A stretch of 64,000 bases of DNA, taken from positions 124,001 to 188,000 of the forward strand of contig NZ_FNPD01000001.1 in NCBI RefSeq assembly GCF_900107215.1, read 5' to 3'. Below the pieces are notes generated by a model. That model was not told the DNA's origin. It saw only the letters and a list, made by a program, of their open reading frames with translations, and ran no database searches. Both the position numbers and the translations under genes were made by a program. Position 1 is the first letter of the stretch, and every line of letters starts with the position of its first letter. The stretch comes from Acetomicrobium thermoterrenum DSM 13490 (GTDB lineage: Bacteria > Synergistota > Synergistia > Synergistales > Acetomicrobiaceae). Positions 12,248-37,212 of the stretch are shown piece after piece.

Positions 12248-13118
12248 GTATATAATAAGAGACACGATGAGGTTGCTGACGCGCCATTTTGGCGTCGTTC
12301 TACTGACGCTCGTTACGGTGGTGGCGGTCTTTTTAGCCGTGGGGATGAGCATCCTGCTTTCCGTAAATGTGGCGTCCCTCGCCTCTCAGATCGAAAGCGA
12401 CCTCACCGTAGAGGCCTATCTCAAGGATCAGGAAGCGAGGTCGGCGGTCCTTGAAAAATTGAAAAACATGCCCGAAATCAAAGAGGTGCGCTACATATCT
12501 CCCGAAGAGGCCTTGAAGCGCCTGGACGCCAAGATTGGCCAGGGAGAACAGATAATATCTCTTTTAGGCGACAACCCCCTTCCACCGAGCGTCATCGCAA
12601 CGGTGGACAGGGCAGAGAACCTGTCCACCGTTGCGCGAGAGATAGAGGCCTTCCCCGAGGTGGAAGACGTAATATACGCAGGAGAGGTAGCGGAGCGGCT
12701 GGCTTCACTGGCTTATTTTTTAAACAGGTTCGCCATGGCCGTGTTCTTCGTGGCGCTGCTTACGAGCCTCGTTATCATGATGAACACCATCAGGATTGCC
12801 CTCTACTCCAGGCGAGAGGAGATAGGCGTCATGCTTTTGGTGGGTGCCACTCCAAGCTACGTATCACTTCCCTTTCTCCTGCAGGGCGTCATATTGGGGG
12901 GAGTTGGAGCGTTGATAGCCCTTTTTTTACTGCTCAGGGCCTACAGATGGCTAGTAGATGTTTTGTCAAAGGTATTGCCCTTTTTTACCATGCTCGATTC
13001 GCCCGAGATATCTCTTTGGCTTTTTTGTCTCCTTGTAGGCGGTGGGGTGGCGCTTGGGTGGCTGTGCAGCTGGACGGCTGTGTATAAATATGTCCGCAGG
13101 GCTTTAAAACCGAGATGA
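12234..13118 (+). CDS. ftsX: Cell division protein FtsX
   Basis: FtsX is the membrane partner of FtsE and relays its state to an extracytoplasmic hydrolase or hydrolase activator. The 294-residue protein has one N-terminal membrane segment (about residues 21-45), an extracytoplasmic domain (EAYLKDQEARSAVLEKLKNM onwards) and three C-terminal membrane segments with the FtsX-type EEIGVMLLVGATPSYV loop. The 14-base overlap with ftsE indicates coupled translation. The next gene encodes a coiled-coil M23 protein, the usual FtsX partner. Confidence 0.95.
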   Translation: MATFKYIIRDTMRLLTRHFGVVLLTLVTVVAVFLAVGMSILLSVNVASLASQIESDLTVEAYLKDQEARSAVLEKLKNMPEIKEVRYISPEEALKRLDAKIGQGEQIISLLGDNPLPPSVIATVDRAENLSTVAREIEAFPEVEDVIYAGEVAERLASLAYFLNRFAMAVFFVALLTSLVIMMNTIRIALYSRREEIGVMLLVGATPSYVSLPFLLQGVILGGVGALIALFLLLRAYRWLVDVLSKVLPFFTMLDSPEISLWLFCLLVGGGVALGWLCSWTAVYKYVRRALKPR

Positions 13119-29648: not shown

Positions 29649-29674
29649 GCTCAGACTCAGTAATAAGGCCTAAA

Positions 29675-29707
29675 AAAGACCGGGCAAACTGCCCGGTCTT
29701 TTTTTTT
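29675..29707 (+). terminator. Rho-independent terminator of the SLH porin gene
   Basis: AAAGACCGGGC (29675-29685) and GCCCGGTCTTT (29691-29701) form a perfect 11-bp stem with a 5-base loop, followed by a run of T to 29707. It lies 27 bases after the porin stop. Confidence 0.93.
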
Positions 29708-33595: not shown

Positions 33596-34024
33596 GTGGT
33601 TCGCAAATATTTGTCTGTGATCATGTTGGCATTAGTGTGTGTCGTCGCAGTGACGGGGGCGGCCGTGGCGGCTGAGAAGATCGCCATTATCGATCCCCAG
33701 AAGGTGCTGTTCAATCATCCGAAATTTCAGGATACGCAAAAGCAGATCCAAGCCATGATGGACAAGAAACAGCAGGAGACGAAGATGGCCATGGAAACCG
33801 TCAAGGCCGAGGAAGAGCAGAGAAGGATCTTCATGCAGAAAAGACAGGAGGCCGCCATCGAGGAACAGAAGATGATGGAGGGCTTGTTCAAGGATATAGA
33901 CATGGCCATCCGCGTAGTGGCCCAGGCGAAGGGCTTTACATTAGTGCTGGATAAAAACCAGGTCTTCTTCGGAGGCGTTGACATCACCAACGACGTGATT
34001 CTGGAGCTTAACAAGAAAAAGTAG
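33596..34024 (+). CDS. skp: Skp/OmpH-family periplasmic chaperone
   Basis: The 142-residue product has a signal peptide (about residues 1-25, ending VAAEK), then IAIIDPQKVLFNHPKFQDT and a long charged helical hairpin (KQIQAMMDKKQQETKMAMET...) with the C-terminal KGFTLVLDKNQVFFGGVDIT strand typical of Skp/OmpH. Skp holds unfolded outer-membrane proteins in the periplasm, which fits the SLH porin. GTG 33596 lies 9 bases after AGGAGGG; the longer frame from 33485 adds a non-signal N-terminus and is rejected. Its terminator is split by the IS element. Confidence 0.9.
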   Translation: MVRKYLSVIMLALVCVVAVTGAAVAAEKIAIIDPQKVLFNHPKFQDTQKQIQAMMDKKQQETKMAMETVKAEEEQRRIFMQKRQEAAIEEQKMMEGLFKDIDMAIRVVAQAKGFTLVLDKNQVFFGGVDITNDVILELNKKK

Positions 34025-34064: not shown

Positions 34065-34096
34065 AAAGGGAAAGCGAAAACGCACTGCGGGTTTTC
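34065..34096 (+). terminator. Skp terminator hairpin, left part (split by IS insertion)
   Basis: Bases 34065-34081 (AAAGGGAAAGCGAAAAC) are exactly complementary to GTTTTC (34091-34096) joined to GCTTTCCCTTT (36267-36277). With the IS and one target copy removed, a perfect 17-bp stem with a 9-base loop is restored. Confidence 0.75.
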
Positions 34097-34199
34097 TGTC
34101 ACCACCGGCATATAATTGACCCAGGATCAACGGGTTGAAAATGACCCACTCCCTAGCTAATAATCCCTCTTGAGATAGCTTCAGATCGGAGGGAAATAA

Positions 34200-35414
34200 A
34201 TGCTAAGGAGTGAGTCGATAATCATGCTACATGAGTTAAGGGCAAAAGACAAGGGTATTCGAGCGATAGCTCGAGAAACGGGCCGTTCGAGGAATACTGT
34301 GAGAAAGTACTTAAAGGCTGGTGGGATCCCAGAGAGGAAGCCGCATCGCAGGCGCAGTTCTAAGCTCGACCAATATAAGAAAACTGTAGGAGAGCTAATG
34401 GATCAAGGCGTATTCAACTGCGAAGTCATCTACGAAAGGATAAAGGCAGAAGGATATGCCGGCGGACGCACGATATTGCGGGATTACGTAAGGGATTTTA
34501 GGCCACCCAGGCAAACGCCTGCCGTGCGCCGATACGAGACGAAACCTGGAGAGCAAGCACAAGCAGACTGGGGGGAATATACGTACATCGACGAAGTAAG
34601 CGGCGAGGTGAGAAAGCTGTACCTTTTCGTGATGGTCTTGGGATACTCGAGGGCCATATACACGGAATTTGCCAACCGCTGCAATGCCAATGCCTTTAAC
34701 CGCTGTCTTATTCATGCCTTTGAATACTTCGGCGGTGTTACAGACGTACTGCTTACAGACAGGATGAAGACCGTGATCTTAGGCATAGGAGATGACAGAA
34801 AGCCTATATGGAATGCAAACTTTTCTGACCTGGCGGCAACGTTAGGGTTTACTCCAAAGGTATGTAGGCCCTATCGTCCCCAGACAAAGGGTAAAGTTGA
34901 ACGAGGCATCGAGTTCGTGAAGGGGAACTTCTTAGCAGGTAGGCGCTTTTCGGACTACGGCGACTTGAACCGGCAGGCTCTAAGCTGGTGTGATGAAAAA
35001 AACAGACGAATACATGGAACTTTGGGCGAAAGGCCCATCGACAGGTTGAAGGAAGAAAACCTAAGGCCTCTTCCTACTTTCAATAAATACCACAGGTTCT
35101 TGACGGAGGTGAGGAAGGTCCAAAGAGATGCACTCGTAAGTTACGACGGAGTGAGGTATGGCGTTCCATGGCAGTATAGCGGACACGAGGTCATGGTAAG
35201 AGAATTAAGCGGCACGATAGAGATCCTTTGCGACGAGAAAGTAATAGCTTCACATCAAAAGCGCTACACCTCAAGGAGCACGTGCTACCTTGAAGGCCAG
35301 TATCAGGGGATAAAGGAAGCAGAAGGACGCCTCTATCCCAAACCTAGGGCGACGAAGCTTGCGTCTTTGGAAGTCCAAAGGCGATCGCTTGTAGTTTACG
35401 ACGTCCTATCCTGA
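34200..35414 (+). CDS. istA: IS21-family transposase IstA
   Basis: IstA cuts and joins the IS ends. The 404-residue protein has an N-terminal helix-turn-helix (GIRAIARETGRSRNTVRKYL), then a DDE integrase core: QADWGEY (first Asp), LLTDRMKTV (second Asp) and KGKVERGIEF (Glu), followed by the basic C-terminal domain. No frameshift or stop is seen, and length fits the family. ATG 34200 is 50 bases inside the left inverted repeat. It precedes istB by 12 bases. Confidence 0.96.
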   Translation: MLRSESIIMLHELRAKDKGIRAIARETGRSRNTVRKYLKAGGIPERKPHRRRSSKLDQYKKTVGELMDQGVFNCEVIYERIKAEGYAGGRTILRDYVRDFRPPRQTPAVRRYETKPGEQAQADWGEYTYIDEVSGEVRKLYLFVMVLGYSRAIYTEFANRCNANAFNRCLIHAFEYFGGVTDVLLTDRMKTVILGIGDDRKPIWNANFSDLAATLGFTPKVCRPYRPQTKGKVERGIEFVKGNFLAGRRFSDYGDLNRQALSWCDEKNRRIHGTLGERPIDRLKEENLRPLPTFNKYHRFLTEVRKVQRDALVSYDGVRYGVPWQYSGHEVMVRELSGTIEILCDEKVIASHQKRYTSRSTCYLEGQYQGIKEAEGRLYPKPRATKLASLEVQRRSLVVYDVLS

Positions 35415-35426
35415 GGTGAATACGAA

Positions 35427-36197
35427 ATGATAGAGCTTGAAATGACAAAAACTAACTTGGAAAGCTTAGGATTGACTGCCGCTGCCAAATACCTTGACGC
35501 CTTCTTGGAGAGGGCACAAGGCGAAAACTACACCTATCTATCGTTCTTAAATGAGCTGCTCGAGGCGGAGGTAGCGGAGCGACAGAGGAGAAACATAGAG
35601 GTGCGCTCTAAGTTATCTAGACTGCCGCATAAGAAGACCTTGCAGGAATTCGACTTTAATTTCCAGCCAGGTGTAGACGAAAAACTCGTCAAGGAGCTTG
35701 CCACCATGGCCTTCGCCTACAGAGCTGAAAACGTGGTGCTTTTAGGCCCTCCCGGCGTAGGCAAAACGCACCTCGCTGTCGGCCTTTCAATGGAAGCGCT
35801 CTCTCGTGGTATCTCGGTGTACTTCACCACCCTTATGAGGATGGTAGAAGACCTAAAAAGGGCATACGAAAATCAATCTTTAATGAGGCGGATGAAGGTA
35901 TATTCATCTCCAAAGCTGCTCGTGATAGATGAAGTGGGATACTTGCCTTTGGATAGCCTTGGTTCAAGCTTGTTTTTCCAGCTTATAAGCGCACGTTACG
36001 AAAGGGGGAGCATAATACTGACCAGCAACAAGGGATTCGGTGAATGGGGAGAGCTGCTGGGCGATCCGGTACTAGCGACAGCAGTGTTGGACAGGCTATT
36101 ACATCATGCCCATATCATTAACATCAGGGGAAACAGTTACCGTCTGAAGGACAGAGCGAAGACGGGGCTGTATAAAAACCCCCAAGCCAATGTTTAG
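35427..36197 (+). CDS. istB: IS21-family ATPase helper IstB
   Basis: IstB is a DnaC-like AAA+ ATPase that assembles on target DNA and stimulates IstA. The 256-residue protein has Walker A LLGPPGVGKTHLA, Walker B KLLVIDEVGYLP, sensor ILTSNKGFGEW and the C-terminal HIINIRGNSYRLKDR segment typical of IstB. It is intact, starting at ATG 35427 after GAGGTGAA, and ends 12 bases before the right inverted repeat. Confidence 0.96.
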   Translation: MIELEMTKTNLESLGLTAAAKYLDAFLERAQGENYTYLSFLNELLEAEVAERQRRNIEVRSKLSRLPHKKTLQEFDFNFQPGVDEKLVKELATMAFAYRAENVVLLGPPGVGKTHLAVGLSMEALSRGISVYFTTLMRMVEDLKRAYENQSLMRRMKVYSSPKLLVIDEVGYLPLDSLGSSLFFQLISARYERGSIILTSNKGFGEWGELLGDPVLATAVLDRLLHHAHIINIRGNSYRLKDRAKTGLYKNPQANV

Positions 36198-36262
36198 TTG
36201 AAGGCCGGGGTGGGTCATTTTTAAACCGGCACAGATGGGTCAAATTAAAGCCGGCGTTGACA

Positions 36263-36277
36263 TTTCGCTTTCCCTTT
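36263..36277 (+). terminator. Skp terminator hairpin, right part with target duplication
   Basis: TTTC (36263-36266) is the second copy of the four-base target duplication; GCTTTCCCTTT (36267-36277) is the distal half of the right arm of the interrupted stem. It is followed by GTAGTTT rather than a long T run. Confidence 0.7.
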
Positions 36278-36336
36278 GTAGTTTAAGGGTTTTATAAAGC
36301 GCGGTTCTGGTCTAAAATAAGACGGCAGGAATAGGC

Positions 36337-37212
36337 ATGAGAGCGAAAAAGGATGATGACATGAAAAAGGACCTTTTGTTGACGGATAGATGGGTGGTCG
36401 TCGATCTCGACGGCACGATAATCAGAAACGATAAAGTCCCAACCAAGGTGGCAAGGGCGGCAAAAGTTCTTCAGGATGCAGGGTGGAGCCTGATCGTTGC
36501 CACAGGCAGGATACTGGCCGGAGCGCTACCTCACGTAAAGGCCCTGAAGACGGCCTGTCCTGCCATCGTTTACGACGGTGCGCGGGTCATGGACCCAAAG
36601 ACGGGGAAAGTCTACTTCGAAAAAAAGATACCAAGACAGATCGCCGCAGAGGTGATCGGCCTGGGGTTTGATTTGCCCTTGGAAATTCAGGTCTACGGCG
36701 ACGAGTCGGTGATTTGTCGGCCCAGCGACCTTTTGACCATAACTTATTTCAAATCCCTCGACGTGGAGTTGAAGCCCTTTCTCGTCTCCTCGCGCCTGGA
36801 TGAAGAGGTCTTCAGGGTGATATTTTTCGGCAAGCCCCTTCTGGTTTCAAAGCTGAAGTCCCTGCTGGAAGAGAGGCTAAAGGAAGCGGCAAACCTCACC
36901 CTGGCCGGAGACGACTTTTTAGACGTCCTTCCCGCAGGGGTCTCCAAAGGGGCGGCACTGGAAGCTTTAAAGGAAATATCGGGCAAAAGAGACGCTTTCA
37001 TCGTGGGCGTGGGAGATCACATGAACGACCTTGAGATGCTTAGGATGTCGGACTTTAGGGCGGCGCCGGCGGACGCCCTTTCGGAAATTCGCGAGATGGC
37101 CGACGTGATAATACCCCCTTCGTCGAAATGCGGCTTTTGCGAGCTCTGTGAACTGCTTTTAAGCGAGGGTTTCGAAGAAAATTTAAGCAGGAGGTGCAAT
37201 GCAAATGTCTGA
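36337..37212 (+). CDS. HAD-superfamily phosphatase, Cof type (subclass IIB)
   Basis: The 291-residue protein has the HAD motif [14 protein letters not shown], motif II VATGR, a cap domain, and motifs III/IV ([12 protein letters not shown] and [12 protein letters not shown]). Cof-type HADs dephosphorylate sugar phosphates, nucleotides or PLP; substrate unknown. ATG 36337 follows AGGAATAGG; ATG 36361 is another candidate start. It lies just right of the IS element, which may now affect its transcription, and overlaps the next gene by 14 bases. Confidence 0.88.

Follow-up and report, generated by a model that had tools for sequence, protein, structure and literature searches.

An IS21-family element in the arm of a probable skp terminator hairpin in Acetomicrobium thermoterrenum

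In the transposase mRNA leaders of IS10, IS50, and IS200, a 5' RNA structure buries the ribosome-binding site of the transposase. In ISPpu9, weakening such a 5' structure raised translation 26-fold (PMC8450116). Insertions of IS5376, an IS21-family element, show no clear sequence specificity and are flanked by 5-bp repeats (PMC10122671). In IS21, tandem copies of the element bring together a -10 box in the left end and a -35 box in the right end, which then form a strong promoter (PMC10122671). A preference of IS21 for kinkable DNA or for DNA next to promoters has also been reported; the helper protein IstB bends the target DNA, and kinkable sites have been proposed as hot spots (PMC11208146). 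Our search of the literature on IS21 with hairpin or terminator targets found nothing to the point.

In the present study, we analysed a 64,000-nucleotide stretch of A. thermoterrenum DNA (the window), in which an IS21-family element lies downstream of skp. The locus is a clean natural example, with an empty site in the same species, of an insertion sequence (IS) that breaks the probable terminator of a gene, so that host transcription may enter the transposase gene. All parts of this locus are given on the + strand.

The split hairpin and its empty site

The gene skp (33596-34024) encodes an OmpH-like periplasmic chaperone (Pfam PF03938 OmpH, E 2.5e-15) and has orthologues in congeners. The left arm of a 17-bp stem, AAAGGGAAAGCGAAAAC (34065-34081), begins 41 bases past the skp stop codon and is followed by a loop of 9 bases (34082-34090) and by the first 6 bases of the right arm (34091-34096), which include the left TTTC copy (34093-34096). 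The remaining 11 bases of the right arm (36267-36277) lie beyond the IS and a second TTTC copy (36263-36266). When the right arm is rejoined with one TTTC, it reads GTTTTCGCTTTCCCTTT, the exact reverse complement of the left arm, and a stable hairpin with a perfect 17-bp stem is restored shortly after the stop codon. The score of the restored stem, 17, is higher than those of all 60 control positions in the window, and from base composition about 3e-5 perfect 17-bp stems are expected by chance per 64 kb. The folding energy is -35.1 kcal/mol for RNA of the restored site (z = -6.2) and -21.5 kcal/mol for that of the IS-split junction (z = -1.7). Folding also adds 8 pairs past a one-base bulge below the 17-bp stem; thus, the full hairpin is longer than was counted in the preliminary description of the locus.

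The hairpin itself is certain, and it is probably the terminator of skp. We infer the latter role rather than assert it because the T run after the stem is weak: the bases that follow in the window are GTAGTTT, a poor T run, and the T tract directly 3' of the stem is TTTGTAGTTT in the window and TTTTAG in the same-species genome described next.

That genome (G061) has no IstA match, and the flanks of its skp locus (L104) are 97-98% identical to the window. In the alignment, the left flank of the window ends at L104:865 and the right flank starts at L104:862. The 4-base overlap is a single TTTC in L104, which proves that TTTC in the window is a target-site duplication. The stem in G061, AAAGGGGAAGCGAAAAC/GTTTTCGCTTCCCCTTT, is an unbroken, perfect 17 bp. 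The preliminary description, which had claimed a hairpin disrupted by the IS and a real TTTC duplication and had called for an empty site in a related strain, is therefore upheld in these respects. The 4-bp duplication could also have been 5 bp long at first, with one T of the run lost later.

One stem pair is compensated between the two genomes, being A-T in the window and G-C in G061, and in two congeners without the IS (G001 and G004) the corresponding position after skp is occupied by other long hairpins. The compensated pair and the hairpins of the congeners indicate that a terminator-like hairpin predates the IS. Judged from these sequences, the retention of a hairpin despite sequence change fits a terminator or an mRNA-end structure. 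The simplest reading, as had been proposed, is that the element inserted recently: a relative that is 97-98% identical lacks it, the duplication is exact, both IS genes are open, and the two arms complement each other perfectly despite their separation.

Two further observations concern the surroundings. In two congeners (L014:614-1216 and, in G004, L015), a convergent ORF for a Glu/Pro-rich, membrane-anchored protein lies between skp and the downstream HAD gene; the window and G061 are without this ORF, and the gap from the hairpin to the HAD gene is only about 60 bp. Elsewhere in the window, long perfect hairpins lie at 12596-12635 (16 bp) and at 29672-29704 (15 bp, then a T tract).

The element, its copies, and its relatives

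The element is 2,166 bp long (34097-36262, TGTCACC...TTGACA), and its ends are common to related copies. It has terminal inverted repeats (TGTCA.../...TGACA) and TGACCCA repeats at both ends. The gene istA (34200-35414) encodes a transposase of 404 aa (NF033546 transpos_IS21, 290 bits, cut-off 160), which matches the IS5376 transposase in PDB 8b4h with an E value of 6.6e-75 and has the DDE residues D123, D187, and E234. Downstream of istA and in the same direction, istB (35427-36197) encodes an AAA+ helper ATPase of 256 aa (NF038214 IS21_help_AAA, 286 bits, cut-off 200; PF01695, E 2e-88) with Walker A and B motifs. Both proteins thus exceed the curated IS21 cut-offs, and both genes are open with their catalytic and Walker motifs, which confirms the original assignment to the IS21 family and the statement that both genes look intact. 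A TATAAT in the left end (34112-34117), invariant in 20 aligned leaders, and a TTGACA in the right end (36257-36262) are the -10 and -35 halves, respectively, of a putative tandem-junction promoter.

Besides the single intact copy, the host has only a 242-bp fragment. Among 183 genomes of the order, one carries an intact element, and no near-identical copy was found in the plasmid collection. The nearest full-length relatives, with 70-73% IstA identity, are in thermophilic Firmicutes. This distribution suggests that the element may have arrived horizontally.

The 242-bp fragment (L002:1501-1742, corresponding to G000:C2:70721-70962) is 97% identical to the element and lies beside an apparent relic of another IS; it points to IS21 activity in this genome at an earlier time. 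A congener (G003:C22, L004:1501-1982) has a 480-bp right-end fragment, 92% identical, near other transposase-like remains, and G004 has a relic of the left end and leader of the same IS subgroup (L007:1547-1611, 37.9 bits with the covariance model described below).

Transcription past the skp stop codon and the istA leader

The stem is broken, and our scan found no terminator-like site on the + strand inside the IS; hence, transcripts of skp may extend into istA and istB. A loss of termination after skp, with read-through into istA, would be plausible. We considered two new signals at the left junction and rejected both: a new terminator, where the junction RNA forms only a 9-bp helix and has no T run, and a hybrid promoter, where the scan paired no flank box with the left-end TATAAT.

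Read-through RNA would contain the istA leader (34147-34214), which was missed in the first reading of the locus and should blunt the effect of read-through. By folding, the leader forms two nested stems. In the inner stem, CCCTC pairs with the GGAGGG Shine-Dalgarno sequence, and in the outer stem, CACTCCCTAGC pairs with GCTAAGGAGTG in istA codons 2-4. For each of the 14 leaders scored, the pairing probability of the Shine-Dalgarno bases is 0.9-1 (z from -3.7 to -7.8). The double hairpin is common to the Thermoanaerobacterales, Caldicoprobacter, and Brevibacillus copies of this IS21 subgroup, and a covariance model trained without the Brevibacillus copies found the Brevibacillus leaders with E values of about 1e-5 to 1e-7. 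Among close relatives alone, covariation is weak, with 65 of 500 shuffles as high. A wider model-based alignment has more compensated pairs in both stems, for example C-G to T-A at column pair 8-112; this alignment is, however, fitted to the structure, and two of its members (L049 and L059) are weak matches. The covariance model gave no significant leader match in distant IS21 elements (about 25-34% identity), Rfam contained no credible match to the leader, and neither Rfam nor the literature searched yielded a comparable leader element. Shine-Dalgarno access in shortened leader RNA, computed over part of the relatives, gave mixed results.

The conserved leader is thus predicted to bury the istA ribosome-binding site in the related elements. 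Because of this, read-through from skp would be expected to yield little IstA: the transcript is predicted to reach istA and to be poorly translated. A possible internal promoter (34135-34164), which was seen in the promoter scan and is not evidently conserved, would give RNA that starts after the 5' arms and would escape the leader block. Tentatively, and leaning slightly to the side of doubt, we propose for this IS21 subgroup that the nested leader, which would cover both the istA ribosome-binding site and the first-codon GGAG, may allow the element to insert behind active host genes, and even into their terminators, without activation by read-through. In this way, the conserved leader predicts how the element stays quiet when it is read into.

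On the other side of the IS, an HAD-IIB (Cof-type) hydrolase gene (36337-37212; PF08282, E 8.9e-37) is preceded by its own promoter-like sequence (36291-36318), whose TAAAAT box is also present in G061, G001, and G004. As the HAD gene retains this sequence, a downstream effect is not expected.

Target choice and the cause of the insertion

Two causes had been suggested for the position of the element, a target preference for hairpins and a selective effect. To judge the former, 29 further insertion sites, all of related elements for which both ends are available, were scored or inspected for hairpins in comparison with local controls. Clear 5-bp duplications are present at 22 of these sites and 4-bp duplications at three (L019, L032, and L052). 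One site alone, L025, beats its controls and lies just 3' of a 13-bp terminator-like stem; no hairpin clearly above controls was found at the remaining sites, and several sites are within long open frames. The 22 sites flanked by 5-bp repeats have no visible base consensus, and the flanks bear no resemblance to the IS ends. A 9-base match upstream, GGTCAATTA, is within chance, as 7.6% of controls reach 9 bases. Perfect hairpins of at least 11 bp cover about 0.3% of the window, and a random insertion into a hairpin would thus be uncommon. Selection removes insertions into most genes, so that the relevant target space is the much smaller non-coding part.

A preference of the element or its IstB helper for hairpin- or cruciform-forming targets, by which the position would be aimed, could draw on the cut inside the 17-bp stem, on the stem beside L025, and on the bending of target DNA by IstB with its proposed kinkable hot spots (PMC11208146); a preference for promoter-adjacent or kinkable DNA could raise the odds at a palindrome. 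Palindromes (REP) are indeed targets of other IS families; however, the five families described as REP-targeting do not include IS21 (PMC1525189), and the related sites, of which only 1 of 29 adjoins a hairpin, share no target sequence. We therefore regard an aimed insertion as very unlikely. Recurrent insertion into hairpins, by which a hairpin-targeting IS is recognized, was not observed. A single hairpin insertion is no evidence for aim, and one such case should not be taken as target choice.

A benefit to the host, through loss of the skp terminator or through a new promoter at the IS end that would, for example, increase downstream expression, is slightly less probable still. The IS, skp, and the HAD gene all have the same direction, and the right end carries an outward TTGACA; however, the scan listed no promoter-like pair across the right IS boundary, and the promoter-like sequence of the HAD gene is also present in the three genomes without the IS. 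The intact element in only 1 of the 183 genomes shows no recurrence, and no gain is visible; the suggested selective effect thus gains no ground here. As the genome is a draft of 21 contigs, the IS might also have been joined here wrongly in the assembly. This is scarcely credible, because a single intact copy lies within a 300-kb contig, the 4-bp duplication is exact, and both flanks are collinear with G061.

With high probability, a complete IS21-family element transposed once into the probable skp terminator, by chance and with a nearly neutral outcome, and read-through would be damped by the leader. The course of events would have been a single transposition with a 4-bp staggered cut in the right arm of the hairpin in a non-coding gap, neither aimed at the hairpin nor selected for. 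With the hairpin broken, skp RNA would run in the sense direction into istA-istB, and the leader would damp istA translation from this RNA by burying the ribosome-binding site.

Such an event is of a kind already known, as it looks like an ordinary chance insertion of IS21 in a probable terminator. The element shares with IS5376 of Geobacillus stearothermophilus the istA-istB operon, the DDE transposase, the AAA+ helper, the multiple terminal repeats, and, as described for IS21, a -10 box in the left end and a -35 box in the right end; it differs from IS5376 in its duplication (4 bp here and 5 bp there) and in the phylum of its host. The REP-targeting elements IS1397, ISPsy8, IS621, and ISPpu9 likewise insert within a palindrome or hairpin, but they repeatedly enter one repeated family of palindromes, a preference that the element in the window does not have. 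The leader RNA is the sole part with some novelty, and its logic is known from other IS families. It resembles the leader of ISPpu9, in which the structure was tested (PMC8450116), in having a 5' RNA fold that covers the ribosome-binding site of the transposase; IS10/IS50, IS200, and ISPpu9 belong to other IS families, whereas the leader in the window is a predicted, conserved structure of an IS21 subgroup.
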